A stretch of 64,000 nt of DNA from positions 25,824,182 through 25,888,181 of the forward strand of contig NC_088711.1 in NCBI RefSeq assembly GCF_963576615.1, in the 5' to 3' direction. The stretch comes from Watersipora subatra. Its lineage: Eukaryota > Bryozoa > Gymnolaemata > Cheilostomatida > Watersiporidae. Shown here one piece after another: positions 1,011 through 58,800 of this stretch (within the stretch, counting starts at the first letter, position 1; each line of letters begins with the position of its first letter). Under the pieces are notes generated by a model. The model searched no databases. It was not told the origin of the DNA and saw nothing but the letters and a program-made list of their open reading frames with translations. Both the position numbers and the translations under genes were made by a program.

Positions 1011-1176
1011 GTAAGTCATTGAGATTGTCTTCCTGAGTAAGTAGACAACTTCTATTTGAATGTGTTTAGTTGTTCTTGAGCAAATACTGCATAAGTTACA
1101 TTATTAATTTATCATGCAGTGTCTGTAATCAGCAAAACCAGTTTAGCTACATTTGTTATCTCTAAAAGGCCTTCAA

Positions 1177-37200: not shown

Positions 37201-40200
37201 ACTCGTCAGTTTTAACACATACCGTCCGTTTTAACACATACCGTAAAACCTCTAATTAAACACCATGGTGCTCTATTTTTCATCCCTTTCTCAATAGTGG
37301 CAGTCAATTCGAGGCGGCGTTCAAATAGGAGCTAGCAGTGTATTTTGCAAATGCCTCGTCAGATTTTTCGGGAAATAAATTTAGCCCTATTACAGACCAA
37401 GCGAACGTCGCCTATATTTTGCCCTTTTCTCCGGTGGAGAACCAATATTAAACCTTTTGGAAGCAATAAATCTGCTAACTTACCTGCAACTCGTCAAAGA
37501 TCTCTTAATAAATATGCAGCGAGAAACCGAGAAATACATGTATCTCTACTAGTTGATATCTATTGCTTGCAATTGACCTGCGATGATATTATAGCCTGTG
37601 TCCTTTTTTGCAATTTGTTGGCATCTTCAATTTTTATTTCATTCTAAATTGGAAGTTATAATTTTATTTTATAACTGTATTTAACAACGTTACATAAAAG
37701 CTCACTGCACTCATTGATATGTTTGCTACAGTTTGTAGCCAAAACTGGCTTTTTATGTGCAATAGAACAGGATTTTTGGGCGTCGATCCATTGTAAGCCA
37801 TTTTAAGATAACCGCAAGTAAGCTATCAAATAATATGCTATAAATCTACAAGTTTACAAGTTATATAATGATAATCTATCAAATAGTACAAATATATATT
37901 CATGGACGAGTGACATAAACAAATCATACTTATATTACATGCAGCAACAAAAATTAACGTTCAGGAACGAACATCTTCTAGTTGTCCAATACCTCCCACA
38001 ATATCTTCTGGCTTCAACTCTTCTTCTGTACTGCTGAACTAGTTGATATTAGCGTCCAAACAATTTTTTGGCAAATTGAAATGTTCACGTGCTGCATGTA
38101 ACACAAATGCAACGTGTCAAAGTTTGCTCGCTAAATGTAAATTTTGGCCCAAAATTTGCAAACTGTTTTTCTATGCATGTTCTTCGAAGTATTAAGACCG
38201 CGTTAAACAAGGAACTCTTATTAGTCTGAGACAGTAATTTTTTCTATGGCGTTGCTTTCAAAGTTCATTTACTATCGTAAATTTACACCCTTTTTTATAG
38301 ATACATGTACTACGAAGTATCAAGACTGCATTAAACAAGGAACTACTATTAGCCTGAGACCGTTATTAATTATTTTTATGGTGTTGCTTTCAAAGTTTTA
38401 ACGAAAAAAAGCGAAAAGTTTCAGAATTGGACAATGGGAGACTTGATTGTTATTAATGTTAACGATTCATTATTTATATGATCTTGTGGGCACTTTCTAC
38501 TAATCACTTGATATTATAGATTCATAAAGATCAAAGATAATCAAAGTGGCCGTCAAATGGAGATGGCGTTCAAATAGAGGGTGGCACTCTATTTTTCAAT
38601 CCATCTCTCGTAGTGGCGGTCAAATAGAGGTGGCGTTCAAACAGAGGTGGCGTTAAAATAGAGGTGGCGTTCAAATAGAGGTGGCATTCAATTAGAGGTT
38701 TTGCGGTATGTATAGCACTGTAGTAATGGTACACAACTCTGTTTTAGGACTCCTTACCATGGAAACCACAACTAATGGTCTAGGAACAACAACAGAAGAT
38801 AATATGGTTGTGACGAGCACTACTGCTGCTCCAGCTACAACTGACCACACCTTTGAAATGAGAACAGTAACAACTGATATTGACCTAGTTACTACGACGA
38901 ATGATCCCACTGTTGAAACAACTGATAGTGACCCAGTTACCTTCACCACTGACCTCAAATATGAAACTATTACTGGTTTTCATCATATGACCCCGACAAC
39001 TGATATTGACCTAGTCACATCGACAAATGATACCCCTGGAACAACTACAGACATTGATCCAGTTACCACGATAACTGATGTTGACTTAATGGCCTCGACA
39101 AATGTCTACACAATTGAAACAACTGACAGTGACCCAGTTGCCACTACAACCGACTACTCCTTTGAAGCAACAACGGATAGTGACCCAGTTGCCACTACAG
39201 CTGACTACACCTTTGAAGCAACAACAGATAGTGACCCAGTTGCTACTACAGCTGACTACACCTTTGAAGCAACAACTGACAGTAACCCAGTTGCCACTAC
39301 AGCTGACTACACCTTTGAAGCAACAATTGACAGTGACCCAATTGCCACTACAGCTGAATACACCTTTGAAGCAACAACAGACAATGACCCAGTTGCCACT
39401 ACAACTGATTTTGATGTACTTGCAATGACTACTGACAAATTATTGAAAACGACATTTGGTGGGAACCTAGTAACAACACAAGAATCCCTAATGACATCTG
39501 ATACTGACCTGACTAGCACGACAACCGGTCAGACATTTGAAGATACAAAAACTGGCATGGCGACCTCTTTGACAGATGAAACACTAGAAATAAGAACTGA
39601 CACCCCTAAAATTGGTGTTGCTCTAGTCGCCATGACAACTGACCATGCCTCAGAAATAGTGAGCGGTACTGGCCCAGCTACTACAAATACCCACCTTGCA
39701 TATGAAGAGGCCACTAATATTGGGGAACATGTTATCAGAACTGACCATTTATTAGAAACTAGAAGGTTGCTTACAACGACTGATATTGACCGTGTTGTTG
39801 AAGTGAATAAATCCACTTCTCAAGCAACTGAAACTGACTTGGGTACTACGAAGCACAGTTTAGACTCATCAGGTCAGAGCGTAAACACGACAGCAGATTT
39901 TGACCTAGTTGCTTCATCAGATGACCCAACAACTAATATCAACCTCAGTGCCGTAATCACAGAAACCCATCAACAAGTAGCAACTCGTGAAATGGTCATG
40001 AATGGACCTGACAAACATGGCACAATCCAGGATGTACATCAAACAGTTGACACAACAGCATCTTCATTGAGCACACAGAGAGCCTTACCTGAAACGCCAA
40101 CAACTGTCAATACAGCCAGTTCATTGCGGACTAATGAATATTCTACCGTTGCAGATATAGCCAAAGACACGCTACAGGTTTTATCAGCCAATCAAGGTAA

Positions 40201-43081
40201 TGTGTCTACAGAGAGAGCTATCCGCCTAGACACAACCGCGTCATCTACTTTTCGATCTTTGTCAGATAGCGCAAGACAGGCGACCGCCACAGCTGGCAAT
40301 AAGTCTGATGCTATGAGAGTGACGACTGGCAAGTCGACCACGCAAAAGGAGTCGCTTTTAAACGCACGTCAAACATCTTTGCAATCAGTTATGGCTACAA
40401 GAATACACAGTATGCCAGTTCAACATTTGGTCATACCCACTACAGTAGGTCAGAAATTGCCTTCCAACAACCAAACAGATCATGACAAAACTAGCAAACA
40501 AGCCATTCCACAATCATCGCTTGGTGAGACACCTCATCAGGAGCGTACTACAATTGCTACACCATTAAACAGTACTACACAAGACATCCGCGTATCTCGT
40601 GATGCAAATGTTTCTGCTATTGCAGCTACTTCTGACACATCATATCTAACAAGGATAAATTCTCTCCCAAGCTTCAAGAAGGCCTCTGAAAAACACCTTT
40701 TTACAAAGCTGGAAAAAAATGATGCAACAACGGCTTCTGGAAGTCTAACCACAGGTACCATTGACATGGATGGTACGATCTTGATGACCGATGAGCAAGG
40801 TTACACAGAGAGTCTTACACCCATAGGTAGATGCTTTAATACATACTTTTCCTTACCTTAACTTCAACCATATTACTCTTTGCCTCAGAGTTGTTTTGGA
40901 GAATAACTGACAGCATTTTAAAATAATCCATTGATGACAATACAAACATGTTTTTAGTTTTCACCAATAATCTTGATATTAGTAGCATGACAGACATACT
41001 TCAGAATAATTTTTTAATATACGACACTGAAAAAAATATTTTGCCTAAACATAGATATCTGTACTTCAGAAATTCAGAAGAAATTTGATGTCAAGGTAGG
41101 CCACCAATCTGTGAATGTGATGTGATGGCTGCTGTTTCAATCATTTCTTTGCCAGCTTTTCATGCTACTAATTTGGTGGTAGTCAGTGTGCCGCGCAAGT
41201 ACCGTAAAACATTCTGTATGGTATTTACACATCCTACATCAGTTCTAGAGTGATGGCTATAAAATTACATCAATATCCCATGTATACAAGTTGAACATTT
41301 GACAAAATTCTCTGTGCAAAACAATGACTATTAAAGGTCAAGCTCTGCTTTAATAATTAAGGATTTTGATCGACCAATTTTTAAACATTCTAGCAGAAAA
41401 ACTGTGGTTTTAATATAATCAAATAGTTTTATTTTATTGAACTTACATAAAAATATTATTTAACCAAAATTTTAATGCTACCAGTTACTAATAATGCATG
41501 TACAGTGCGTACTGTCAGTTAATTTTCAACACAATGGTTGGGGAAACCATGAGCATGTTTGGATTGGCACCTCTTTGCATTATCGCAACTGCATGCCTAA
41601 ATACAAACAAATACTTTAAAATCCAATTGAATTTTCACCCTAAATAAACTACATGTATATAATTTAGTACAACTGGCTTTAGTAGATTTACCAAAATTAC
41701 CAAATCTCCATTTACTGAAACAATATGAAGTTTTTTTTTACAACAGTTGCACTTATTACAAGCACTTTTTTAATATTAATTTGTCCTAGAAAGGTTTGTA
41801 GCCCTTTGTTATAAACAATTCAGAGTGTCATGAAAGTGAAAGCTTTATCTTTGTTTCAAATTAGCTGTTTTAAAGAAGATGCTAAACACCCAAATTTTGT
41901 ATATTTGTATTGAGTAGGCAATTCCTATTAAGCATACATTGTTATGCGTTAAACTTGTTGCACGCTGCAACAAACATTTTTATAATATTGTATTGTATTT
42001 TTGTTTAATATGTTCATCTCGCAGCGGAAAACTTAACAGATATGTCAAGTAGTTACATTTGGTAGTAAAATGAAGGCGCTATTTAAAACAACGTAAAAAC
42101 TACATGTAAAAAGCTAAACGATACATACGAAACTAGATAAATAAAATAGTAATGAATGCAAGAGGTTTTCTTTGACACATCACTTTTATGTTGAAAACAT
42201 TCAAATGATGGTACATCTGTGGCAATACAGGAGACAGATGTTGAGCAGGTACATGTAGCGATAGAGATATGGAGCCTAAATTAAATGAACTTCAAGTTAA
42301 CATCAACAATGCTTTTTTAGTTTTCACATAAATTTTCAATTATCACGGGCAGCTTGTCAGCTTTTACCAGTTTTAAGCTTCTTTTTCGTCACAGCACTTT
42401 CACAAACTTCCTAATAGTAGCTACTTGACAGCTTTAAAAAAATTTTAAAGAATTGATCCCAAGGTGTTTTTCATGTTTCCATGATATGCTGTTTTGATTA
42501 TTTAGCAATCATTGCCCTTTTCTTTTTTTCGCTACTATTAGAGTATTCTGAAGCTCTAAACTAAGAAATAAGGTATATAGCAATTTAACACCGGTTAGGA
42601 AAGGTAGTACTGATTTACAAAACTACCACAAATCATGTTTACATGATCGTGAGCTTTGTTATTGAAGATATTATGATCTTGCTTGTTTTGGTAGATTTAC
42701 ATCAAGTGTCAATATGCTAATATACATACTTCTAAATACTTATTCCATGTAAGAATTTTATACACATTGTGCTGGTTCTGCAGTCATTGTTAACCATTCA
42801 AAATCGTTCGAATTGCAGTCACCAATGAAACACAGAAATATGAGATGGGTACACATGGAAACATTCTAGTCGAACCGAGAACTGGTCAGTCAGAAATGGA
42901 TGAAGTCATGTCAGCGATTATGAAAGAAAACGATGAACCAGTACGTCGCCGGAGCATTCAGATAGCCTATGCAATTCTGTTGTCAATTGTCGGCTTTGTA
43001 GTCGTTGTTTTTGCTGTCGTGGGAATAACATATTACGTACGGTATCTTAGAGGCGAGTCCTACATTGTTAACAAGATGTAA
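24974..43081 (+). CDS. Gene B: mucin-like single-pass membrane glycoprotein
   Basis: Seven exons join in frame: 24974-25232, 31374-31532, 32749-32964, 34376-34588, 35621-35725, 38748-40826 and 42819-43081. They encode about 1097 residues, with every intron in phase 1. Domain order is a signal peptide (MICLLLELLLFSLAIPA), a glycosylated beta-rich ectodomain (to about residue 317), a Thr/Ser-rich mucin-like stalk (about 318-1010), a transmembrane helix (about 1058-1084) and a 13-residue tail ending YIVNKM. It is probably a heavily O-glycosylated surface receptor or adhesion protein. I do not recognise the family. The start could instead be an alternative first exon of a larger A+B gene, because an acceptor in the right phase lies just upstream. 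Confidence 0.75.
25380..25500 (+). repeat. tRNA-derived SINE head
   Basis: A box A-like tggcgcagtggttagtgtgt and a box B-like ggaagttcaaatcct lie 50 bases apart, as in RNA polymerase III promoters of tRNA-derived SINEs. It lies inside intron 1 of gene B. No full cloverleaf can be drawn with confidence, so a functional tRNA is unlikely. Confidence 0.6.
25971..26016. repeat. Perfect 20-bp hairpin
   Basis: The arms tttcactaaaaatacatgta (25971-25990) and its exact reverse complement (25997-26016) flank a 6-nt loop. Confidence 0.9.
26259..26459 (+). pseudogene. Decayed duplicate of gene B exon 5, left part
   Basis: The segment aligns with 35612-35819: aaaggagc.tgatgtggtct, ctgagcttatctg, tctagaggttt and the donor-side atggttagt are shared, as is intron sequence up to catacatattgtgca. 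A one-base loss in the ttctctttc region and other substitutions break the frame, so it is a relic exon lying 9 kb upstream of the functional one. Confidence 0.85.
27429..27480. repeat. Perfect 20-bp hairpin, 12-nt loop
   Basis: The arms tacttatattactgtgcaag (27429-27448) and its exact reverse complement (27461-27480) enclose ccgaaacatcga. Confidence 0.9.
27506..27580. repeat. Perfect 21-bp inverted repeat, 33-nt spacer
   Basis: The arm at 27506-27526 (ttcccttaactctttcgcta plus c) has its exact reverse complement at 27560-27580. It lies 26 bases after the previous hairpin. Confidence 0.9.
28180..29376. mobile_element. Middle nested TIR element
   Basis: The left end ctaggacacttatgtattcg and the right end gcgaaatataagtgtcctag are inverted repeats. 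Subterminal gcgaaa/ttcgcg motifs occur on both sides. It sits between the arms of the outer element. Confidence 0.7.
28787..29198. mobile_element. Innermost MITE (ctaccgtacttttcgga ends)
   Basis: A 412-bp element with imperfect inverted ends ctaccgtacttttcggac and, on the reverse strand, ctaccgtactgtttggac. Subterminal gcggcttat repeats are present. Ends of this kind are common on hAT-type MITEs in animals, which is a family-level resemblance only. Confidence 0.7.
30238..30300 (+). repeat. Decayed duplicate of gene B exon 5 region, right part
   Basis: The sequence gtgcaaggttcaacgtattt and the following cttgtttttaagtttgaag align with 35815-35870, the intron sequence just past exon 5. It completes the copy interrupted at 26460. 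Confidence 0.75.
30800..31035 (+). repeat. 21-bp minisatellite (cacataacagtgggcatggtc)
   Basis: About 11 to 14 copies with cacata/cacatg and tcca/ttca variants. Decayed copies continue to about 31145. Short frames are open on both strands because the unit is divisible by three. Confidence 0.9.
31374..31532 (+). CDS. Gene B exon 2
   Basis: The acceptor tatgcag and donor g|gtttgt, phase 1-1. The product includes AQTVRLVGTRVDVYGRGGER and ends CVNYVLADGEVEATIYV, with an NGS site. Confidence 0.7.
31920..32710. mobile_element. Truncated family 1 element, chimeric
   Basis: The sequence from about 31920 to 32590 follows the interior of the element at 37227-38711 in the same orientation. From about 32600 the 5' part of the element starts again (ggtggtgcggcattaaacct). 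Both copies lack complete ends. Confidence 0.75.
32749..32964 (+). CDS. Gene B exon 3
   Basis: The acceptor ccattttag and donor g|gtattg bound 216 bases in phase 1-1. The product includes LDMRWAENNSFIEFLGEPKN with glycosylation sites NNS, NCS, NST and NES. Confidence 0.75.
32965..34375. other. Gene B intron 3, no recognised feature
   Basis: AT-rich intron without a supported gene or repeat. A short palindromic run (aggaaaataaactttttcct) occurs near 33280-33300. Confidence 0.35.
34376..34588 (+). CDS. Gene B exon 4
   Basis: The acceptor ttttgtag and donor g|gtaagt bound 213 bases in phase 1-1. The product includes YVGGYDSVLTIASHSSNSTL and later NITNNTVRISYDPFAILMRG with N-x-S/T sites. Confidence 0.75.
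35621..35725 (+). CDS. Gene B exon 5
   Basis: The acceptor tttgttag and donor g|gttagt bound 105 bases in phase 1-1 (LKLEYLSKEPDVVSPGTYTL, then a Gly-flanked strand SLSGGLEVSLSIEDG). A decayed paralogous copy lies at 26259-26459. Confidence 0.75.
35962..36525 (+). repeat. 48-bp minisatellite, about 11.5 copies
   Basis: The unit begins cctagtctgtgttagactaa, followed by gttaccgtgtgtatctctat and tacttcga. The internal tagtctgtgttagacta is itself a small palindrome. The open 183-codon frame is a consequence of the unit length and has no splice support. Confidence 0.95.
37227..38711. mobile_element. 1.45-kb TIR element, family 1, copy 2
   Basis: The left end cataccgtaaaacctctaat and right end attagaggttttgcggtatg are inverted repeats. 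The right side carries five 17-bp subterminal copies of aggtggcgttcaaatag. A frame near 37980-38060 on the minus strand (STEEELKPEDIVGGIGQLED) is shared with copy 1 and looks like the acidic end of a lost transposase. The element stops only 36 bases before gene B exon 6. Confidence 0.85.
38748..40826 (+). CDS. Gene B exon 6: mucin-like Thr/Ser stalk
   Basis: The acceptor gttttag and donor g|gtagat bound 2079 bases in phase 1-1 with no stop (692 whole codons). Thr is the dominant residue. Between about 39115 and 39415 a 17-residue unit (EATTDSDPVATTADYTF) is repeated about six times, encoded by a 51-bp minisatellite. Spacing of Asp-Pro and Thr-Thr suggests dense O-glycosylation. The second half is less repetitive and contains several N-x-S/T sites. 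This is an extended stalk between the folded ectodomain and the membrane. Confidence 0.85.
40862..42818. other. Gene B last intron, no recognised feature
   Basis: About 2 kb of AT-rich intron. I see no exon, RNA or strong repeat. Confidence 0.35.
42819..43081 (+). CDS. Gene B exon 7: transmembrane helix and short tail
   Basis: The acceptor aattgcag, phase 1, leads to a juxtamembrane region (VEPRTGQSEMDEVMSAIMKE), an RRR cluster, and a hydrophobic helix (AYAILLSIVGFVVVVFAVVG). The tail RYLRGESYIVNKM is followed by taa at 43079-43081. The Tyr in the tail could be an endocytic or signalling motif, but no standard motif is complete. Confidence 0.8.
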
Positions 43082-43184: not shown

Positions 43185-43190
43185 TTTAAT
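43185..43190 (-). terminator. ATTAAA polyadenylation signal candidate for Trio/Kalirin
   Basis: The reverse strand reads ATTAAA, the commonest variant hexamer. No AATAAA was seen on this strand between the Trio/Kalirin stop and this point. If it is used, the two convergent transcripts overlap by up to about 100 bases. Confidence 0.3.
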
Positions 43191-43279: not shown

Positions 43280-43378
43280 GAAAACAAATGCATTAAGTTG
43301 CCTAGCAAAATGAATGTGGAAAAAAATTTGTAATACTAATGCATGGTTTGACAGGAGTATGGTTAGCTGGGAGCCTCC

Positions 43379-43450
43379 TCAGCAGTTGTGTGTGTATCGA
43401 GAGTTGGAGGCTTTTTTGCGTCTTTCCGTTGATTTAAGTACATGGAAAGT
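43379..43450 (-). CDS. TRIO/KALRN: Candidate alternative last exon of Trio/Kalirin
   Basis: On the minus strand an acceptor tacccacag is followed by two overlapping open frames. One (phase 0) contains LKSTERRKKASNS and ends at 43379. The other (phase 2) contains MYLNQRKDAKKPPTLDTH and ends at 43363. The upstream exon has only weak matching donors (cat|gttttaa, or a GC donor ag|gcatgt), so this is a tentative replacement for the short read-through end at 43649. Confidence 0.25.
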   Translation of the reverse strand, partial: TFHVLKSTERRKKASNSRYTHNC

Positions 43451-43648
43451 CTGTGGGTAGGCAATTTGTTGTCCTTTTCTGGGAGCATGTTTAGCCAGCT
43501 GCATTTAATACATCTATCGGCCAGTGGTCGCATCCTGCTTAAAGATATACATGTTTGTAGGATTTATATTGCCTTAAATTGCAAATGACCATAATTTAAA
43601 TCCGTGGCGAATTTTCTTGTGAAATACAACAAAATAATACGAAAATGC

Positions 43649-43874
43649 AAGCTACAGAAATGTACAAAAGTATTTCATGCTAATTAAAACATGCCTTGGA
43701 TTTTTAATGAACATCACTTTGAGCAAGGTCAGGCAGCCTTCTGATACATGCGGAAACAGCTCATCAGGAAATGAAGGGTTTCCTTGGATGATGTTATCTT
43801 TTGTAGCTTGGACATCTTTATGATAAAAGGGTGTGACTCCGCATAACATAAGGTAGGTGAAGACTCCTACAGAC
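43649..43874 (-). CDS. TRIO/KALRN: Trio/Kalirin pseudokinase exon 4 (C-lobe) and stop
   Basis: The acceptor ctaacag starts with one base that completes the Trp of the conserved DIW motif, followed by [16 protein letters not shown] (helix F and the loop after it), then helices matching the lower kinase lobe. After FIKNPR the frame leaves the family pattern and stops at 43649, shorter than vertebrate Kalirin, which continues about 60 residues. Confidence 0.85.
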
Positions 43875-46800
43875 CTGTTAGCAAGAGCGTCATAATGTAA
43901 ACATCTTGCAAATGATAAGATGTTTTAAAACAATTTTAATGCTGGCTTTTGTTCAGCACTGCATTCCGTTGCACAGTATCAAATGAAGTTCAACAAAAAA
44001 ATTTTTGTACTTACACAAAAGAAAGCATAAAACAACATTTGGAGTGCTTTATGTAAGGCTGGTATAGACTAAAAACTATCAGCTTGAAGGAGATTAGAAA
44101 AAACATTTCTATGAAATAGCACTTAATTAAGTATATGTTTGTTTGTTTATTTTCATCTATAATATAACTACAAAAAATAATATGAAGAGTGTTTCTTACA
44201 GTATAAAAGAACAAGAGAAATAGAAAAAAAATGTCACTCCAGGGCTATGTAGTTAGGCTATGTGGACTATGATTTAAAACAATGATGTCTTTTTCTGCAA
44301 AACGTAGTATGAAACATTTCACTTGAGGCGCGAATTGCTTCTGTGCTGCCATATATTATTGTTAATCAAAAAGGGATTTGACGTTAGGAATAATAGAAAT
44401 TGTGTTGAAGATATTTACCAAATGTCTGTGGTAGGAGCAACACTTTTTGTACTGATAACTTCAATCGACTGAAACTCGATATCATCAGACAGATCAGGTG
44501 ATTCACATTCCTTGGCACACGTATCTTCATTGGCATCGAGAAATCTTGCATACTCGAAACCTGTTAGTTTTAGAATTCGACTTTCCGTAACTAGTACAGT
44601 TTCAGGCTAGAAAAGAGAAAGGACAGACAATTACTGTGAAATACATGCAGCCCTGAATGTACATGTAGCATAGATTTGCCAAAGAATTTGAGGAAGGTGT
44701 GCCATAAGTTTATGAAAAGGCTCCTTGGAAATCTAAATCTCGAGTCAGCTTATATTACCCAGAGACTACAATATAAGGTGCAAAAATTGACAAATATTTC
44801 TGCCAAAATTTTGGACAAAATGTTTTTATTATCTAGACAACTGACCGCTTTTTCAGCCGTTGCCAAACAAAGACCAGAACGCAATATACTCACAAGGATG
44901 TTGAGGTGCAATACATTGATTTCTTGGAGGCGCTGAAGAGCTTGCATTAGTTGCCGAGTGTACAACACAAAATCTACTTCACACACAGCTTCTTCCAAAC
45001 ACAGGCGCTCTAATAACGGTTCTTTTATGCTGTAAAATACAGGTTAATGATGTAATATGCAAAATTGAAGCTTCTAAACAGTTTCAGTACAACCTGGTTT
45101 GCCTTCTTGATTTTTATTTGAAGCAATGATTTATGACGAGAAAAATGTTTTCATAAATGATTCCCAGGAAGTTTGCAAGACACCAACTATTGAATCTGAG
45201 TTAGTGAACCATTAACATAAGGTGTTATAGCAATGTAGGTCAGATGGTATTTTACACAAAGCTGTTGTGATATGTAAAATGTTATACACAGGTTGCTAAG
45301 AAAAGGTATGCTTCCACATCCAAGCCACATGAACCAGTTTGACAAAATTTCCACTACATTAGTGACAAACGTTTTTAACTTTCAAATCAATGCTCGTAAT
45401 GATAATAGGAGTTAACATATAATATAACTTGAAAGTAGAAACTGCATTAATAATGTAATAATAAATTGGTAATTTTAAAACAAGTAAATTGAGGTGTGGA
45501 CTCGACAATACAGGGAATTAACAGATCATGACAGAAATAAGGAGCTAGTCTAATTTAGACTGCACACACTTTATAATTCAACAGAACATATTCATTTTTA
45601 TATTTAGTATGCATTTAAAAGTATATCATGATCAGCCTACTACTATCACTATTACTCATTTGTAGCTTTTTTCTGCATCACTCTCACATTCTTTCTCACA
45701 TTAGCTACTAGATGGTTTCAAAGATTTTACAAGAAACTAATCGAAAGATTAAATTACACGAAAGATATTGGCTCATATTTTTCGATATTTGTGGTTTTAC
45801 GTAAAAGAAAAACACTGACTTCTTTTTTTTACGACTACCATCACTGGTGCTAGTCTTCTTTAGATCAATGATTTTAAAACTATAACAAGAAATTATGAAA
45901 CTCTGCTTGATATTATTCACACACTATAGAACCAATGTATGTGAAGAAGAATTTGGTACGTATGTACCACTTTCGTAAACACCCGTAAGACAGGAATTAG
46001 TCTGTCGGGGCGAATGTCTGCTAAAATTTCACGTCGTTGTTTAGAAGATTTTTACATGTAGATGTAATCGAAGGGTGAGGTTTGATTGTGGTTCGTGTGA
46101 GAATATAAGCGATTCTTAAAAATAAACTTGCACAAAATCTTAGTACATTTAATCAGATAGTATCGATCTTTTTCTTTCTTTCATCTGTGATTTTTTTTTA
46201 TATTTGCAGTGATCTGACTGCCAGGATGTTTCAAGATTAAATTGACAAAACTTTATTTAAAATTCTGTTAAAACACTCAGATCAAGCAAAAGTGATATTA
46301 TGACATCTATAGTTGCAAAGAGACCGACAGAATAGCAACACGTAATGCTGCAACTTAACATAATAACACTTATCAACTAGTGACATAATCTTAGCACATA
46401 TTTTTTTTCTGAGCGTTTTAAACATGATCAAGTTTTATCGATTTTAATCTTGAAACGTTCTTGCAGTCAGATGACTTCAAACATTAACAATAATAAAAAA
46501 ATAAAAGAAAAATACTGATAATTTCTAATAGAATCTACTAAAACTTGGTGTAATTTCATCTTTAAAGAAAGTTCTACAAAAACCTTTAATAAAATAAAAT
46601 AGGGTGATTAATGTTACTAGTGGGCAAGAGTCTTCAATTATAATTATAAAGTATTCAACAGAAAATTACTTTTATATGTACATGTATATATCTATAAATG
46701 TAAATTAACTGCAACTTTTGAGTAAACTGTACCGATCTGTCCTGTGGCTATATTCGAAAATGCATTATACCTACACCTACAGTATTATACCTCCTTTAAT

Positions 46801-49800
46801 CTTTGCCAGTGATACTAAACATTACATTGATCATCTATTAGTGTGCTTGGGAATCCTTTCGCTTCATGATATAGTAATGTTTAGTTTCAGAAAACATACT
46901 TGGGCATGATGAAAATGTTGTTAGAGTCAGATCTGTAGTACTCTAGAGGTGTAAGTATATTGGGATGTGTGCACTGTGAGAGTATCTCTTTCTCAATTCC
47001 AGCTCTTTCACCACTCTCGAGGCATCTTGCTATGATCATTTCATTATCTAATATCCTTTTGTAACATCTTATCTCACCACCGTTAAAACTGAAAAAATCG
47101 ACACCTAAGATATTGCGCATGGGCACTGAGAACATCCGATACAAACTAAATAATGCTCTCCTCATTTAACGACGGGCTCGCTTATCGATGACTCAAAGTT
47201 ACGATGATAAAATGTTAACAAATATGTGTAAAGAAGCAAAACTAGAATAACAAGAAAATACATTTCTTGCAAATTTTGAAGTAGCCATGAATGTATAGAT
47301 ATCACGCATATATACTAGTTGTGGCATTGTTTTTATGTACATACTGTACTCGATGTTTAGGTACATAGCTATTTAGGTACATGCGGTACTTGATGTCATC
47401 CTAATATCAGCTATTTAGGTACATACGGTACTTGATGTCATACTAATATCAGCTATTTAGGTACATACGGTACTTGATGTCATACTAATATCAGCTATTT
47501 AAGTACATACGGTACTTGATGTCATACTAATATCAGCTATTTAAGTACATACGGTACTTGATGTCATACTAATATCAGCTATTTAAGTACATACGGTACT
47601 TGATGTCATACTAATATCAGCTATTTAAGTACATACGGTACTTGATGTCATACTAATATCAGCTATTTAAGTACATACGGTACTTGATGTCATACTAATA
47701 TCAGCTATTTAGGTACATACGGTATGGTACATACATACAACTATGGTACATGCAAATGCTAAATGAAAAGAGAAATGCCAAGAAAGTAAATATTAAGAAT
47801 GAGTAAAAATATGTAACATCTACCTCAATTTACTCTACGATAATGTAACATTTGTTTACTCGCTTATGCATGCACAAAAGCTAAAAGAAAAAGTTAAAAT
47901 TTAATTTAATTTAAAAAAATTCACATTTATTATTTAAACAAGCCAACAGAAAATAGAGAAAGAGAAATGATGAAGAATTACGGTATAGAAAATAAATAGT
48001 TTAGACAAATGCAACGGAGGTTCAAAGGACGGTTCATTTAACAAGGTCTTTATACTGTAACCCCGTCGTTAACGGGAACTACCTGTAAATAATGAGAAAT
48101 CGATAAAAAGATGTTGCAATAATGTTTGTGACCAAGGAGTTGGAGATAGTAAACATTCGACTCTGTTTCTGTTTGAATTGATATCCAAGGAAAAAGTTCT
48201 GTAAAACATGAAATGACCTCTTGCCAGAGTTGAGACTTTTTACAGAAAATGACTTGTTCTAAATACAAAAAAATCCTGCCATGTACGTACATTGTCAATA
48301 TTTCTACAGCCAATAGTTGCCAAATTTTTCAGTTTCTGAACTAGGGGTGACACATAAAAACAAGTGCCGTGATTAGAACTCATGTCATTTAATATTAAAA
48401 CCAAACTTCTACACCCAATTGTCTTAACACTCAAATCTTTTAAATTATGTTGTAAAGTTTGTGGAAACTTTAGATTCTAAGCTTGCTTTATTTCCCAACA
48501 CATGATGTTCACAGTCATTTTAAACAACCCAGTTTCATAAGTAAATGTTAAAAGCCTAAAGGTGAAAATCAGGAATAAATTGTAAAAAATGTTACATAAA
48601 ACTAATAACCTGTTAAATAGTGTCTAGCATATACTTACTCCAAGTTAGTTTGCTTGTCATCTCTTACTACAAACCTACACATTGCATAGCCTACACTTTC
48701 TTTCGTTTGTTTCTCGATTTAGCAAGAATGAAAACCTTTTACAGATTGCTAGTTCATTTATACATTTACGGGTACGCCTATGTATTTTATGTCTCTTTAC
48801 ATCCGTTTATAATGCATTTACGGGTACGCCTATGTATTTTATGTCTCTTTACATCCGTTTATAATGCATTTGTTTCATTGTTACGTATAACTTCATGCAA
48901 TATTATCTATAGAGTTATCATGCATTGTTTTCTACTATGGCACAAACTAAATCTCTTGTAGGGTATTCTTGTAGGAATATCTGCTCCTATGCAACAGTTT
49001 GAACACATGAAGCAATAATCAAAACAAACCAACACCATATATTGAGGCTTGACTGTAATTTATCCTGCATTGTGTCAGAGATGAAACTAGCTGAATCACC
49101 CAGAAACCTCTATGATATGACCAAACTTAGCTTAGTTTTGGCTAAACAAAATCTATCGCGAATTACACTGGAAAAGAATATTAGCATGATAATGAGAATC
49201 GCATGAAAAATGACACGCTGAAGATACATCGGCTTTGTAATAGTTTCTTAGTTTAATCATTGGTCTGTAATCAGGTTTATAAATAATGTTTAAACTTAAC
49301 ATAATAATAGTAGTTTGCCTTTATTTGTAGCAGAAAGTATGCAAAGAGGCATACTTTAAAGAGACACTTTCAAGTATGCAAAGGGACACACAGAAAAAGT
49401 TAACATGAATTCTTTTGTATCATGTTTTGGTTAATCATAGATACTAAACACAGCCGCTAACCTGGAAATTGTGGAATTGTGTCTATGCAAATCCTCAAAG
49501 TGTGATTTCCATTCTGAAGATGACGAAGTCTCCATAGGATTATCTGTAACTATCACAAGCGCAGTAGTTATACGAATACAAGATCAAGTAGCCCCGATAG
49601 TTTAACAGAATAATAATCAGATGATGTCCGGTTTTCAACACAGCAGGAGTAAAAGTTCAAATGTAGATGTTTAGAGTGAGAATGTTTTGATATCAAATCT
49701 GTATGTACAATAACAAATGGGTAACAGATATCTAAAATAACAAATGGGTAACATATATCTAAAATAACAAATGGGTAACATATATCTACAATAACAAATG

Positions 49801-52800
49801 GGTAACAGATATCTAAAATAACAAATGGGTAACAGATATCTACAATAACAAATGGGTAACAGATATCTAAAATAACAAATGGGTAACAGATATCTAAAAT
49901 AACAAATGGGTAACAGATATCTAAAATAACAAATGGATAACAGATATTTATGATAACAAATAGATAGCAAAATAATACTTATAATAACAAATGGATAAAC
50001 AGATAAATATAACTAGTTGAATGCCAGCGCTGCGCAAGTAATAAACTAATTACCCAATGAATTTGAGTAACCTACCTGATAAGCTAGTAACCTGATCTAA
50101 ATCTTTACTATAATAATAGCTGTGAAGCCAGCTTGACAGTAACGTCATTACGCGTAATGTCGAGCTGGTCAATAATATTTTTGCATGTGCTGCATCAGTA
50201 TGTGCCCTATTTTTCCATAGTGTGAGAAAGACAGCGTAGCGTATTGGATTAGCTTCCAGTCGGCGGACCCGAAGGTTCCGAGTTCAAATCCAGTGAGAAG
50301 CAGATTTGAATGATGGAATGTATATCTCTGCTTATTATGAATCGAAAACACCAGCACATCTGTATTGACATATGACCAATGAGCTGACACTTTAATAATA
50401 ATGAGCTGCTCTATGTACATGATTTTAAAATATTATTAAATGGTGGCAAAAACAATTTGCCCAGCATCTTGTACCGCTATTACGCATATTAAGAAGAACA
50501 ACTCTAGCAATATTGCTGAGCATAGATTTGTAGGACTAGAGTTTTAGCTATGATTTAGTGGTAATTTAGTCAGCACCTAACTAAAATCGTTAGAGTGAGT
50601 GGCTCATGATTGGCTACCTTTTTTACAGTGCTGAGGTATGCAGACCGGGTCAGAGACCGGTCCAGGCAGACTGACTCCGGCACCATTGAGTGTACGCACT
50701 CTAAAAAAGTAGGTTTGGGCATCTGCAAGTTTCTCCTTCTCGATGAGCTGTGAGTTTTCCTTGACATACGCTATAACTTCTTTCCACTCCCAGGATTCTA
50801 AAACAACAGATTTCCTCTTAGATTTGTGATGTGAGAAAAGGTTGAGGAGTCTGACTTGACCACAAAGTTAGTGGTGACAAAGTTAGTGGTGACAAAAGGA
50901 CACTGGTGGTGACAGGAATGACACCTGATCTTATTGCTCTGTGCAACTGGTTATGTCTGCCGTCGTCGCAGTTCCCTTACTACTGGACTCTTACATGCGC
51001 AGCCAAGATCACAGAGCCATTATTTGTGCAACAAAAACAATGAAAAAACATGCACAGCCTCTGCTAGCAATTAGTTAAGTAGGCATCATACTCAATCTTA
51101 CAAAAATTGCTCAAACACACTTCGATAGCAAAGATGACCTATAAAATCAACTTCCTGTAAATCATCGTTTCATAAATTCAAAACGAATGTGTGGTTTGAT
51201 GCAATACAAAGTTTATTAAATAGGTGGTTTGATGCAATACCAGGTTTATTAAATAGGTGGTTTGATGCAATACTAGGTTTATTAAATAGGTGGTTTGATG
51301 CAATACCAGGTTTATTAAATAGGTCTGCATATTAACTAATGTAAAAATCTACTGAGCAAAATGTGAAGTAGCTTGTTTGACAATTGCAGTTTTACGATAG
51401 AGAAAACCTAATTTGAGGCAGATATTTACATTGTACATCCGATTAGTGACAGTTCTCATATAATTTCCTAACCAACCATAAACGCCGATGGTACAAAAAA
51501 TCTGGATAACTCAATTCAGTGTTTACATAAAAATGTGGTTCTGTAAAATTCCTCAACCAAGGGATAGAGAAAAAAAGTAGACGACTCCTACCCGTGTGGC
51601 TGCTTTCAATTGCATAACCCTCTATTGGTGAACGACCCACGTATCTAGGAGGATTCCAACTAAGTACGATTGAGCCATCATCTGTGTCTTCCACCAATGG
51701 TTTATCTGGCGGATCAGCAACGTCTAAATGTCACATGAAAACAAATTCTCACATGTGCTTAACCGATGGAAGAAGCAATGAGTTTAAGGTAAGGCTAAAT
51801 CTCGACATAGCAGAGCAACATGAACTAATTATAATATTGGCTGGTCAACCAAATGGTATAAGATGTGGTTGGACTACAATGGATGGTCTGGGCAGATTGT
51901 AGATGCGATCTGAGAATTTTAGACAGCAAATATATACAAACACAGCATCAAGCATTCAGGGCATTTAGACGATGATCATAACTGTCTATATCAGGTAGCG
52001 TAACCATAAAACATAATTTTTTAAAGTGTTCTAACTTTTTGTTGATCAGGCAAAATGATACTAGTTTGTAGTAGCAGAAAACAGAATGGACAATATACGA
52101 TTCTGGTAAAATAGCGATAGGCCTTTTGGTTTTACAGCCATCTTTCTGAGCTGTAAATAGGCATTACACGTAAATAGAAAATATTGCAGATAAAAATTAG
52201 TTTCTTTAAATTTGTTTAAAAAATGTTTTACGTGTTTTATTTGAAAAATTTGTCAAAAATTATCTCAACTTATTCTGACTGAAAAATAACAACTTGGCCA
52301 TTATAGTGTCATTTAGATCATACGTATATCTAAAAAATAATAGAATCTATAAAAAGTAAATCTTGTAAATTTTCTTTGGAAGTCAAACTAGTTTAACAAA
52401 CTGCGGTAGGAAAATATTAGATAGATGTTATATGTCTGGTCATACCTATGACATCTATAAGGGCTGATCTTTCAACTTCTCCCATTTCACTGACAGCATA
52501 ACAAGTGTATGAGCCTGTGTCAGCTATTGTAGACCTCTTGAGCTGAAAAGGTCAGCAGATGTTTTTCATCATTGGAAGACAGGTGTGAAAATGTAACAAT
52601 AGCTAGTGGCAAGGAATTCAAAAAAATATTCCTGCATATGCATTTGATTATGCTAGCATTTATTGGTGTCTCATCACTGAGCATGTATCTCTGCTAATAT
52701 CTCCGTTTTGTATAATTGCAGAACATTGACAAAAAACTTTGCAGTAGGGTAATACAAAATTGAAAAAATCCTTACACTGAAACCATAGTGTCCATAATCT

Positions 52801-55800
52801 GATTCCATCCAGTCTATTCTCTCATCAGGTAAAGCAATTTTACCATCTGGTGTTTTCCAGTAAATGTTTGGTTTTGGTTTTCCTGAGATATGGCATTCTA
52901 AAAGTGCTTCTTCGCCCACTTTTACTGTAACACTGTCAGGTTCAAAATTGAAGGAAGGTTCCATCATGGAGTTGCTCAGTGCTGTGATCTGTAAATATAA
53001 ACACCGATATTATTTCTCCTGCCATGCATACCAAGAATGTACATCGAATTACACCAAAAGTCTGAAACTAACTTTAAAACTGAGTTTTTGCTGCCAGCTG
53101 TTTGATGACTTTGCATTAGGACTTCTGGATCTGCGCCGAATCAATTTTAGTTTCATTTTCTTCTCCGACTTTTCCTCATCGCCTGCTGAGAGATAGTGCG
53201 AGGTGGCATTTCCAACATCAAGAGGAAATCTGTCTTGACCTCTTCCAATAATTCCTAAAACAGCAAACAGCTGTTTTCACTCCGCACCTGGAATAACTGG
53301 GTTGCTTCTGCACGTATTTTTGTTACCCACCTAAAGCTATGCCAGATATCCATCCTTGCTGGCCAGGGTGGTGAGCACACGCAGGTTTGAAGACATGAAA
53401 CCTGTTGGCTTCTTCATCTGTGCTTAGCAGTTGCACCATGTCTCCTCTTGAGCAGCTTATATCATCAGCCGTGTCAGCATTGTACTTGGACAGCACACGC
53501 ACAAATGGTAGTCTCTGGAGACAACATGTAAAAGATGTTTAAAAAACTTTCTCATCTTGGATGATTTATTTTTAGTTTAAGTGTCAGAAGTATCGACAGC
53601 AATTTGAAAAACTTCATCAAGACTGAAAATAAGTTAAATTATTTGTAGAAATAAAACTAAGATACGCAGAATCTGTTTGAATCAAACTTATGCTTTTTCA
53701 GTCATTAACCGATGCTAGATGCTTTTAGTATGACAAACAGCATCAATATTCTTTGTATAACTGTTGCCACAACTGGCACCAGTGAGGAGTTTTGCTAAAT
53801 AATTGGATTGCAGATATAAACAGTTTGAGCCATGCGCGGTAGCGAAAGGAATGTCAACAAGCTGTATGTAGCTCTCACCTGGTAATGCTGGTGGCAATGA
53901 GAAAACAGGAGTAGTCGATGCTAGAAATAAGCTGAGATGCATTACAGCGTTTTGCAGTTGAAGTGCACTCACTCTTCAATCGAATGACTGAGGGAACTGA
54001 TCAGAAATCTGTGAATCTCAATTTATAAATAATAACACAAATCTTTAAAATAAGACGGGGACACATCAGGGGGTCCAATATTATATTCTCAGTGTGATGC
54101 ACAGACACATTGCCATCTGCATTCATGATAACAAATATACAGACGCACCATCACAAACCTTTACTAAACACATATTTTCACACAGATTAGAGGTTAGCCA
54201 AAGAAAACAAAAAAGTCACAATCACCGCTTTGATTTTTTTCAAACACCAAAATGAATTGCTCGACATAAAAAAATATATGCTGATCTCAAGCATAACATT
54301 AGGGCATACGTAACAAACTATTTCTCAAAACATAAACACACATCAAAAACTAGAAATCGTATTTAAATGCTTATGTAATATATGTTTACAAATAAAAAAT
54401 TCGTATAAGAAAATATACAGTACTGTATTTGTTAATATTTAGAAAAATGTGTTAACTAATTAGACGAAAACTGGTAAGTATGAAAGTTGAACAAAGATGC
54501 ATAATAAATGATATAAATGGAGTCAGAGTCAAGAAGATGCGCATGCACACGCCTGGGCAAGAAACACTCTTAACCGTGTCCGGCGAGCATGCAGACCTCA
54601 GTTCAGCCATACGTCACCTGATACTCACGTTTGGCTTAGGCTGGTCTGCACAAACGGACTTATGCTTGCCTTTCTTAGAAAACAACGAGGATTTTCTTTG
54701 AACCGGACGACTGATAGTTGTGCTGTCTACTTGGTCATCTAGGCCGAGAACTGGTTCGGGCAAGCCTGAAGGTTTACCTCCTTTCACATAGGACATCGGG
54801 TTCTGCAAAGCTACAAACAAAAACATTGTCTAAATGACATCCCCTATGCTCTACTCCTACTCAATTCACGTAGTCAATGTAACCAGAACTCTCTTTATAA
54901 AATATTTTTCAAAATACAAGGTTTCTAAATAGACAAAAAGATAAGCAAAGCCGCTGAAGCGACTGGTAACTCACCTCGTAAAATGTCTCCCTGCATATCT
55001 AGCATGTTCCTTATTTGGGAAGTCCACTGCTCCTTGTGTTTGCTGTTACTGGTTTGTATGAAGACTGTGAGAGAGTGACCTGGAGTTTTGTCTAGTAACT
55101 TGAAAAGGAGGGGGCTGTTTGGTACATCACTCTCTAATGACATCTTGTTAACCTGTGTAGGAAATTTTAACAGTGAGACAATTATAGTGTATAATAGTCA
55201 TGCGCCATAGCCGTCTGTCCAATGCTGCCTGAGTAGACAACTACTAAATATGGCCAATCATTTAAATAAAATGTAATTAAACGCTGATACATTTAATGCA
55301 TGCGTATGTACAGAAAATTAAAAGCTCACACTAGTACCTGGTTGTTAGTAATTATTAGAATCTGCTTTTGTGCGCTACATTTCATCTTATAATTGGGGTT
55401 TTGAAATGACAAATAAAAAATGTTCACAAATGGTAAAAAGTTACTGCTTGCAAATCTCTTTGCGTTTTAGCCATGTATGAAATTATTTAATAAACAAAGT
55501 GTAAAATATATCAATCTTTCAAAGTGTACAATACATCAATCTTTCAACTATAGATCTATGTAAACAAAACACCATAATAACAATTACATGATAGTTTAAT
55601 AAAAATATTGTGCTACAAGTGGTTATCTTGCGGCATAGTGGAGAGGTCAATGGAAAAGGGCAACTTTTTGTTGCACATAAATATTGCTGCGAAAGTTTTA
55701 AGTTTTTGTCACAACTGCCTGTTGGGAAAAATTGCAACTATTTTCCAAAATAAAGAGAGGCTTCAAATTTAAGAAAATAAATTTTCATGTTTATCATCCC

Positions 55801-58800
55801 TTGCAGAGTTGGTTTGTGGATTAGGTGTTAGATCAAACTTTCTCTTTTGAAAGATAACCAATAACGAGCTCCACAAAGCCAAATTTTTAGCTAGAGCTTT
55901 TTACTGTAAAATTAACAATTATCAGTTTACCGCAGAGAGGGCCCCAAAGCTATGGTCCTTGTCAGGTCTTTGCATGCTTTGCATGGCAACTAGCAGTAAA
56001 GAACTCTTTTCAGAGTACGTTGATGTCTAATACATAACATAAAAAAATGTCTTCATGTTTTTTAAAATAATATAATGCAATAAATTCTATTTTAATCATG
56101 GAGTAATTTTCATAAAACGGAATTGAATCAAATCTTTTTTTAAATTCAACGTAAGACGGATAGCCAAGCAATACATAAGTGAAAAAATAAGGGAATATGA
56201 ATTCTTTATACGTAACCTAGAGGAGTGAGCATGATAAAACATAAAAAGTATTTATGATTTAAAGCTCAGAGTCAAGCTTTATGTTGGCCCATAAATAAAA
56301 ACTTCCAGCTTTTGGTCTGGATAGGAAGCAAAGATGGTGAGTTATTTAGTCAGACAGCTCAGCAAAATTTAAATCCAAGCTGATTTGGGTGCCTTCAGGT
56401 TCTCTATAAGTAACCTAGATGGTTGCAGGTGACAAAATATAAAAAACTAACAATAACAGAATAGGGTAGGCGGTAAACATTCTTTTAATCCAACGCGTAT
56501 CTTTAAACTTGGAGTTGTCCTTTACACATCGACATCAGCAATTTATGACTAACATGATAATTACTCTATTGATAACCCACAAATGAATCCAATAACACAT
56601 TTTGAGCATACACTAAAGCTATTTACTGTAGTTTAAAGCATTTAAATATTTATGCAAATCTCTGGAACAGCTTTTGTTGATACATCGATGATGCATCGTT
56701 GATGCATGTCCATATCTATTGTCAATGATCCCATTCAATTCGGTTAGAGGGTACTATCTTGTAGCCCAGTCAAGGCAAACACTGCCTGTAAGGTTCACCC
56801 AAATCGAATCCACACCAATGACCCAATAAAGAATTTGATATCACATCAAACACTAGATTTTATAAACATCTAAGAAAGCTGCAATGAATACACTATGATA
56901 GATGCACATGTTAGTAAAGCTTGCTCTGGTTGGTGGCTCATTCTACAGCACGCTGACTGCTGACTTCTAGTGAGTTCCGAAAAGTAGAGGTCAGTTTAGC
57001 GGCATCAGAATTATTGAAGAACCAAATATATGCTGTTTTAAGGTTAACATCATCACACAAAGCTATTACATAGATATATCAGGCTTCTTTCAGCCTTCTG
57101 GCCTCTGGCCCTCACCTTGATGGAGTGTTTGAAGATATAATGGGGTTGGACAAGGGCGTTCTTACTCTCTATCACTTCACTTAGAATAATAATCTGCTCA
57201 AACACAAATATTCTTCTCTCTTTGAACTTCAAGTCAGTCTTATTAGGATGATATTCCGCCACTGGCAGCGTATCTTGTAATAGCAGCTTTCCATGAGCTG
57301 TCAGCTTCCCCTGTACAGAGGAATACGCAGTACGATATCAAAAGATAGCAAAGCCGCACTTGGCAAAGCCTTAGCTCCAGACATTAAACATAATATGTGA
57401 TTGTATTAGAGGCAACACACAGCTTAAAGAATGACCTTGAATATGGTAAGTGTCAAACCTCAAAGCCCTGTAGCCTGCCAACGTTCATCATGTCATTGGC
57501 TTCCTTGGGCACACGGTGCATCACTGAGATGGCATCCTCAAGTGATCTAGTTGGCTCCCCACTTCTCTTTGTGTACTTGAGGATGTCCTTGAGCAGCAAC
57601 TGGTACTTCATAATGCGCTGTACAGGCTTTATAAGCAGGTCTGTCAGCTGTAGTCGGTGGTTCAGCACTCCTTTTATTTCCTACATAAAGCCCCTCGATT
57701 AGTTAGCAAAGGGGAGAAACATCTGTTTGTAAAATTGTATGTATTCTTTGATATAAAGACAGCTTATGCGCTGACACAAATGCAAAGCTAAAAATTAGCC
57801 TCAGGCAAAAATAGTTGCATCATCTCAAATAACTAAATTTCAAAAACCTGTATATCTTATCATTCTGTATCTGCATAGCACCAACTTTAATGCATTACAC
57901 ACCACGGCTCAGCTAGAGCAACTCGACACAGCGTATGACAAAAAGTTGCGTATGGCCAGGATAGGCGTGGCTTAAATAGCCTTCTTCATACAAAATGTTT
58001 CTGATTAGTGAGTAGCTAATTAATTAGCCTATCGTATTTGTACTTAAACAAAAGGAAACAATTATCTGCCTGTGTTGAACTAATAGAAAATATGTTTACA
58101 GCCCACCTTGAGCTCAGTTTCACTTTGCAAAAGCTATTTTTCTATCGCAAATTTTTTGTCTGCAATGACCAGTCGTGTCAGACGCATTACAGCTATAAGG
58201 TTTCACTAATTGTAGATCAATGAACTAATAATGATTTTCTATTGAAAAATAGTACTACTGAGAGTAATTGTATTATTTTTAGCAGTAATAATTATCTTGT
58301 AAGCTATAATATTAAGATTAATAACTCGTCTAACTTGGAACACGCTCGACTTGTTACTCACTGTAGTAGCGTAAATGGCCGCAAATGTTTCCATTCCCAT
58401 TCTGCAAACCATTTGTAGCCGTTTATGGATCAAGTGATGTAAAATTTTAGTCTCATTAATTTGGAATAGAAATATTTTATATAAGCCATCTGACTCAAAA
58501 GTTGTGACAATTTTTATGTGCTCTTGTCAAATTTTAGGTTTTACTGAATATAGATGCTACCCGACAGACGAACATTCGTGTTATAACAAAGGTAGATACG
58601 AACGGAATTGTTTGTACAGACGCCACCCCATAACTACCCTTTATAACTATATTTACCAGAGTTGCATTAAAGCTCATTGCACTCATTGATATGCTTGCTA
58701 TAGTTTGCAGCTAATCTGGCTTTTTATGTGCAATAGAACAGGAGTTATGAGTGTCGATCCATTGTAAGCCGAATTTATATAACAATGATGCTATCAAATA

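Follow-up and report, generated by a model that had tools for sequence, protein, structure and literature searches.

The Trio/Kalirin gene of the bryozoan Watersipora subatra probably ends in a pseudokinase whose fold was kept by selection

The DNA analysed here is a stretch of 64,000 nucleotides of chromosome 4 of the bryozoan Watersipora subatra (contig NC_088711.1; hereafter the window, with positions counted from its first letter). The C-terminal half of a Trio/Kalirin gene lies on its minus strand, from 57680 to 43363, and encodes in this order DH2, PH2, SH3, Ig, FN3 and kinase domains, followed by the stop codon TAA. A reading of the bare sequence (the original prediction) had proposed that the kinase is a pseudokinase with altered catalytic and preserved structural parts. 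On the sequence evidence given below we consider it probable that the gene does end in a genuine pseudokinase, from which the residues for ATP/Mg binding and phosphotransfer were lost in an ancestor while selection kept the fold.

Our model of this half of the gene comprises 16 exons and 893 residues. All 15 introns are in phase from DH2 to the stop; 14 are of the GT-AG type and one, before the last exon, is GC-AG. Among PDB chains, DH2-PH2 matches Triple functional domain protein best (6d8z, E 9e-54) and Rho guanine nucleotide exchange factor 25 second (2rgn, 3e-49), with further Trio chains far behind (1nty, 4e-25). We take 6d8z to be the second guanine nucleotide exchange factor (GEF) module, GEF2, of human Trio and 1nty to be GEF1. 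The SH3 domain scores above the Pfam cut-off for SH3_KALRN and is the sole Kalirin-type SH3 match listed in the genome search. On the same strand, DH1 and PH1 were found about 92-95 kb past the window end with related Trio proteins as probes, and spectrin-repeat exons lie colinear upstream, DH1, PH1 and spectrin repeats spanning about 92-120 kb past the window end (tblastn with two spider Trio proteins; genomic matches only). Marks of Trio/Kalirin that were found here are a pair of Dbl GEF modules in the same gene (DH1-PH1 and DH2-PH2), spectrin repeats ahead of DH1, and the succession of Kalirin-type C-terminal SH3, Ig, FN3 and kinase, in agreement with the gene family originally named. Over the 893 residues the top-scoring proteins among the matches listed, after the public RefSeq model P0037 of the same gene, are Kalirin or Trio proteins of molluscs, a brachiopod, a nemertean and vertebrates. 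The order in obscurin/UNC-89 is SH3-DH-PH, whereas here it is DH-PH-SH3-Ig-FN3-kinase. Obscurin/UNC-89 has two kinases (PMC10129394), the gene here a single one followed by the stop. This domain order and the best structural match of DH2-PH2 rule out obscurin/UNC-89 or another Ig-FN3 kinase. The features of the gene, from 5' to 3', are the following.

57459-57680, minus strand: C-terminal exon of DH2 (RhoGEF); Pfam RhoGEF match, 6d8z E 9e-54, phase, residues identical in P0037
57116-57310, minus strand: PH2 exon a; 6d8z match, phase, in P0037
54975-55152, minus strand: PH2 exon b; 6d8z match, phase, in P0037
54629-54810, minus strand: linker exon, the last of P0037; phase, in P0037
53331-53514, minus strand: Kalirin/Trio C-terminal SH3 exon; SH3_KALRN match as above
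53073-53254, minus strand: linker exon from SH3 to Ig; open and in phase
52776-52988, minus strand: Ig I-set exon 1; domain match, phase
52446-52542, minus strand: Ig I-set exon 2; domain match, phase
51592-51723, minus strand: FN3 exon 1; domain match, phase
50618-50797, minus strand: FN3 exon 2, ending in phase 1 (AAAAAAG followed by GTAGCC); domain match, phase
49462-49513, minus strand: K0, kinase entry exon; best-scored of seven phase-restoring candidates, with W-K-x-x-F/Y as in other Trio kinases
46900-47088, minus strand: K1, glycine loop, beta3 (IIAR) and helix C (Glu kept); phase, alignment
44894-45029, minus strand: K2, hinge to catalytic loop (HLN); phase
44419-44606, minus strand: K3, end of catalytic loop (PET), GFE, activation segment, SIE and start of DIW; phase
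43695-43874, minus strand: K4, alpha F to alpha H (WSVGV to KNP), with the GC splice donor gcatgt; phase
43363-43534, minus strand: K5, subdomain XI (RMRP to CSWL), C-terminal helix LPTHRLSMYLNQRK and stop TAA; aligns with the C-terminal ends of other Trio kinases
43185-43190, minus strand: ATTAAA, candidate poly(A) signal 172 bases past the kinase stop; consensus match only

The kinase, first described as a four-exon domain, is encoded by six exons between 43363 and 49513. The four-exon model lacked the 5' exon at 49462-49513 and the 3' exon at 43363-43534 (MRPLADRCIKCSWLN up to the stop), and its last exon (43695-43874) had been extended through the GC splice donor as far as 43652, where a stop occurs by chance. 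The direct splice from FN3 to K1 which that model implies had to be rejected because the phases clash, the FN3 exon ending in phase 1 and K1 starting in phase 2, and it was for this reason that K0 was sought. The three best of the seven candidates for K0 share the donor at 49462 and use acceptors at 49513, 49543 or 49549; the start of K0 is less certain than its end, since the acceptors at 49543 and 49549 fit too. K0 brings a W-K-x-x-F motif, which precedes the first beta strand in other Trio kinases, and K5 brings the C-terminal helix, to be compared with ISTTRLADFVERRK in Octopus. Across the six in-phase exons the kinase frame is open over 307 codons, and the statement that stops and frameshifts are absent holds for the enlarged domain. 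K1-K5 without K0 match Pfam Pkinase with 95 bits (E 5.9e-27) from helix C to the end, and the closest solved structures are serine/threonine kinases 17B and 17A, DAPK3 and MYLK4. The Pkinase match, the in-phase introns and the listing of K1-K5 in the genome search argue against a chance resemblance. Together with this profile match, the helix-C Glu, the HxD His, the APE Glu, the alpha-F Asp and the subdomain XI Arg place the domain in the kinase superfamily. Minisatellites flank K0 in both introns, at 47332-47724 (42 bases, 9.4 copies, 95% matches) and at 49702-50005 (27 bases, 11 copies).

All residue changes quoted in the original prediction are present on the minus strand, namely I-A-R, LHLN-IL continuing across the exon junction with PET, and GFE. 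VAIK has become IIAR, HRD has become HLN, DFG has become GFE and APE has become SIE, and in the catalytic loop Lys is replaced by Leu and Asn by Thr; the change of Lys to Leu and that of APE to SIE add to the losses first listed, and the Gly of DFG is altered too (Glu in GFE). An active kinase of the CAMK group would carry the beta3 Lys, the HxD Asp, the catalytic-loop Asn and the DxG Asp. At these positions the window has Arg (or Met in the automatic alignment), Asn, Thr and Gly. Loss of at least one of the beta3 Lys, the HRD Asp and the DFG Asp marks a pseudokinase, and all three are gone, so that by every residue criterion the domain is predicted to be one. The glycine loop is degenerate, as had been stated, while its exact form N-x-G-x-x-R depends on the alignment and appears only in a MAFFT alignment with a 3-residue insert, where Met rather than Arg stands opposite the beta3 Lys. 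When the sequence is aligned without gaps from the WK motif, GxGxxG corresponds to SSFNGG (S-x-F-x-x-G), VAIK corresponds to IIAR and Arg stands opposite the beta3 Lys. Neither alignment of the N-lobe preserves the beta3 Lys, and in each of them two or more of the three glycine-loop positions are altered. The hinge has changed as well, reading PNIKEPL in the window versus ELLPSGRL in Lingula. Retained are the helix-C Glu, the HRD His, the DFG Phe, the APE Glu, the Asp, Trp and Gly of DIWSVG and the subdomain XI Arg, and the claim that structural parts persist is borne out for helix C and DIWSVG.

The alignment across animals that had been suggested as a check sets the window apart. The comparison drew 238 proteins from the matches listed for the 893 residues; a kinase that matches that of Lingula Trio is present in 189 of them, most from vertebrates. 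Lys72 of beta3 is Lys in all 188 kinases with a letter at this position (one gap), Asp166 of HxD is Asp in 186 of 188, P0078 and P0083 having Gly (one gap), Asn171 of the catalytic loop is Asn in 188 of 188 (one gap) and Asp184 of DxG is Asp in 188 of 189, with Asn in the one exception, Dirofilaria P0100. The window has lost all four and is alone in this sample in their joint loss. The Phe and Gly of DFG vary more loosely in the family (Leu for Phe in 75/189, Glu for Gly in 27/189), and only part of the GFE change therefore exceeds family variation. An altered DFG is already present in vertebrate Kalirin, for example DME in Xenopus kalirin P0171. In a broad hand-picked alignment of 33 rows (the window and 32 others, with Lingula twice and with Ptychodera, which the motif search missed, omitted) 30 of the 32 rows besides the window carry all four residues, the exceptions being Dirofilaria and the metagenome protein P0078. 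The intact rows comprise a brachiopod, molluscs, a nemertean, rotifers, a hemichordate, amphioxus, vertebrates, seven insects, a crustacean and Trichostrongylus, one of the two nematodes; in rotifers Gln replaces the catalytic-loop Lys with the four key residues in place. The kinase had been described as an intermediate state towards the condition in fly and worm, and this description is at odds with the many protostomes among the intact rows. Since the kinase is intact in brachiopod, molluscs, nemertean and insects, the sequences indicate that the bryozoan change is an independent, lineage-specific event. According to PMC2703648 (this and the other articles given by PMC number are cited from excerpts), fly Trio lacks the Ig and FN3 domains and UNC-73 has both. 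The CAMK set of the oyster kinome is said to include every family described in human (PMC4883820). Other Trio kinases in the sample deviate too: P0078 and P0083, metagenome proteins with the source 'lgn', have HLG for HxD and DFS for DFG and represent a second degenerating Trio kinase, and the Trio kinase of Dirofilaria immitis (P0100) has NFG for DFG with Lys, HxD Asp and Asn intact.

The pattern of loss and retention had been taken to point to constraint, and the conserved columns of the family agree with this. Such columns were defined as at least 85% identical over 28 reference kinases, for which five of the 33 rows were set aside (the window, the two nematodes, P0078 and one of the two Lingula isoforms, the second). 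Of the 70 columns so defined the window retains 41: none of the eight nucleotide or catalytic columns, but 41 of the remaining 62 (Fisher p 4.5e-4). Scoring the loop Gly as kept gives 1/9 and 40/61 (p 0.003). With a stricter set of 185 rows (184 of the 189 kinases and the Lingula probe again) and a 95% cut-off, 34 of 60 columns are retained, and textbook position lists under the ungapped N-lobe reading give 0/9 catalytic and 8/8 structural positions kept. Compared with the reference kinases, the window has a median identity of 27%; the references themselves reach 36-52%, the two nematodes 26% each and P0078 30%. The nematode kinases have thus diverged as much as that of the window, yet they retain most catalytic residues. 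The kinase branch of the window, at 2.52 amino-acid substitutions per site (next 1.27), is the longest among 24 species on a fixed topology, in which the length of terminal branches depends on the species sampled. In simulations of neutral drift the frame stayed free of stops in 17% of runs at 0.05, in 3.5% at 0.1 and in 0.1% (1/1000) at 0.2 nucleotide substitutions per site. A frame that is open after so long a branch, with losses concentrated at catalytic sites, fits neutral decay badly, and we conclude from these sequence comparisons that the kinase appears to have evolved fast but not freely.

Our interpretation is that the domain is most likely a folded, nucleotide-free pseudokinase that would serve as a binding or regulatory module. 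In the ancestor of the lineage a CAMK-type kinase, intact in sequence, would have lost the residues for Mg-ATP and phosphotransfer, and selection would have kept the domain folded after catalysis was lost. The Ile at the VAIK Ala, a position of the catalytic spine, and the altered hinge would leave little room or contact for ATP, and a regulatory spine (R-spine) kept as Leu-Pro-His-Phe, by our own mapping, could allow the lobes to close without it. The closed domain may then present a fixed binding surface beside Ig-FN3, recruiting partners or tuning GEF2, the RhoA-GEF module. A scaffold or ligand-binding role, as originally suggested, is plausible by analogy; the Ig-FN3 counterpart in Kalirin binds the GTPase domain of dynamin (PMC2703648).

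Several observations weigh against this interpretation. The alignment of the N-lobe is ambiguous, and ahead of helix C the lobe is not recognised by Pfam, the first 42 positions of the Pkinase profile (glycine loop and beta3) being unmatched. The division into catalytic and structural columns was our own choice from textbook knowledge. DH2-PH2 of the window likewise has the longest branch (0.585; next 0.485), and the ratio of kinase to DH2-PH2 branch, 4.3 in the window, reaches 3.3-4.6 in five of the 23 other species and exceeds 4.3 in two: Rotaria (4.6), crocodile Trio (4.4), Petrolisthes (3.9), Trachymyrmex (3.3) and Ctenocephalides (3.3). The kinases of these species look intact or nearly so, and fast evolution alone is therefore no proof of repurposing. 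The scaffold step rests on analogy, and for the variant that involves GEF2 it counts that the activity of human TrioC was unaffected by the regions flanking it up to the Ig domain. Further points concern the gene model. P0037 (533 amino acids, 'rho guanine nucleotide exchange factor 25-like [Watersipora subatra]') ends before SH3: at window positions 54617-54810 it reads past the donor of the linker exon into the intron (VSIR, stop) and excludes the SH3, Ig, FN3 and kinase exons. A W. subatra protein with the kinase was found neither at 158-502 amino acids (all 36 matches) nor among the best 120 of 1230 matches at 491-1563 or the best 120 of 1370 at 1059-3369. As a near-identical protein of the same species should rank first, its absence from the best-scoring matches counts, and a kinase-containing transcript in W. 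subatra is putative. Loss also extends beyond catalysis, 29 of the 70 family-conserved columns having gone, some of them structural.

The short public model and the lost columns, with the longest kinase branch of the 24 species, speak for a domain on its way out, in which catalysis was lost, selection is relaxed or absent and a short isoform ending before SH3 does the work. Isoforms without the C-terminal domains exist for vertebrate Kalirin and Trio (PMC2703648). We nevertheless regard such decay as unlikely, although it is the alternative to be taken most seriously. No stop occurs in the 307 codons, every kinase intron keeps the phase and has usable splice sites, the C-terminal helix can still be recognised, as can subdomain XI, and both the concentration of losses in catalytic columns and the small share of simulated neutral runs that stay open speak against it. 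The short model ends at a stop with no AATAAA or ATTAAA within 1 kb.

It is more doubtful still that the kinase exons are absent from the mature mRNA, either because unseen exons with an intact kinase are used or because these exons are constitutively skipped. The lack of an annotated W. subatra protein with the kinase exons among the matches listed would accord with it; however, the stop of the gene comes after K5, and the search for other exons with intact motifs, which the original prediction had named as a possible refutation, gave no H.D..K..N, DFG or GxGxF motif elsewhere in the window in any frame, only isolated HxD- or VAIK-like words without the other motifs. The genome search with the kinase listed its five exons K1-K5 and three weak, unrelated kinases (24-28% identity), and no second Trio-type kinase was found in the genome searches or in 90 kb around a second DH-PH locus (G000:C1:16118270-16119925). 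This locus is 69-73% identical over the DH2 exon and was considered as a second Trio gene with an intact kinase, which was rejected because the best matches in the 90 kb (58 kb of it downstream) have E values of 0.28 for SH3, 1.8 for Ig-FN3 and 3.3 for the kinase; it is perhaps a p63RhoGEF-like gene. The single Kalirin-type SH3 match in the genome speaks in the same direction. That the domain binds nucleotide and performs an unusual reaction (metal-free phosphotransfer, AMPylation or glutamylation, as in some pseudokinases; unusual catalysis by pseudokinases is discussed in PMC10129394) is very improbable, for although an Arg at the beta3 Lys position in the ungapped alignment could still pair with the kept helix-C Glu, the two Asp have been lost together with the Lys and Asn of the catalytic loop, Ile replaces the VAIK Ala, the hinge is altered and a compensating acidic or basic cluster was not recognised.

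Other observations from the same searches and the surrounding DNA are given here. No other bryozoan proteins were among the matches listed in the three length ranges. An apparent lack of animal relatives in the search at 158-502 amino acids was an artefact of the length filter. Nine of the matches from that search, aligned with the window and probably bacterial (P0002, P0005, P0006, P0008, P0013, P0020, P0025, P0028 and P0034), are degenerate kinases with HRE and TGFS for HRD and DFG; the word KLTGF is common to them and the window, and we think that this and other shared words are convergence. On the plus strand, 38696-43081 holds two open frames. One (38696-40861) is mucin-like and includes a 51-base tandem repeat at 39118-39408; the other ends at 43081, has an apparent membrane segment and possibly belongs to the same gene. 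The mucin-like gene and Trio are arranged tail to tail, and their 3' ends would overlap if the candidate poly(A) signals (plus strand 43274, minus strand 43190) are used. Past the window, at about 92046-95383 from the window start, some 3.3 kb of short repeats leave more than 1000 codons open in two minus-strand frames (QLHQLY..., NCINYIN...), with a third open in pieces (STDSTAS...).

If the pseudokinase reading is true, the bryozoan lineage would have dispensed with Trio phosphotransfer entirely, and the conserved function of the Trio kinase, for which no activity is reported, would be at least partly non-catalytic (docking, or control of GEF2 or Ig-FN3). A natural orthologue that lacks catalysis yet has the structural residues would allow the catalytic role to be told apart from the non-catalytic one and would open the question to tests by domain swaps. 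An earlier report of a Trio pseudokinase was not found in titles or abstracts of the open-licence literature searched, and Trio is unmentioned in the excerpts of three pseudokinase papers searched by term (PMC10129394, PMC4042850 and PMC7586955). Lineage-specific pseudokinases as such are already known from titin (PMC4042850) and obscurin (PMC10129394). This may be, though we hold the claim only tentatively, the first recorded natural Trio/Kalirin kinase in which all catalytic residues are lost and the fold is under selection.

The nearest known systems are the Trio/Kalirin-12 kinases of other animals (Lingula P0161, Octopus P0159, vertebrate Trio P0041), which share the family, the domain order and the C-terminal helix after the kinase; nearly all of them retain the Lys, the HxD Asp, the catalytic-loop Asn and the DxG Asp, whereas W. 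subatra has lost all four. Others are obscurin PK1, titin, which has no RhoGEF domain, and VRK3, a different kinase with a different architecture. Like the W. subatra domain, Drosophila obscurin PK1 is a kinase of a giant protein beside Ig and FN3 domains, and it is an inactive pseudokinase with scaffolding properties; its R-spine contains Pro (PMC10129394), as does that of W. subatra by our mapping. In PK1, however, GxGxxG, AAK and DFG are preserved and ATP is bound in the absence of metal (PMC10129394), whereas in W. subatra these motifs are gone and the gene is Trio. The kinase of vertebrate titin, a muscle filament protein, is likewise a lineage-specific pseudokinase with active relatives, an altered DFG and a bulky residue at the second position of VAIK (Met, where W. 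subatra has Ile), but its inactivity is ascribed to two atypical residues (PMC4042850). VRK3 also has a degraded catalytic site, keeps the kinase fold and cannot bind ATP (PMC2639636), the fold in W. subatra being putative. Trio would thus join titin and obscurin among the giant signalling proteins whose kinase turned into a pseudokinase in particular animal lineages.

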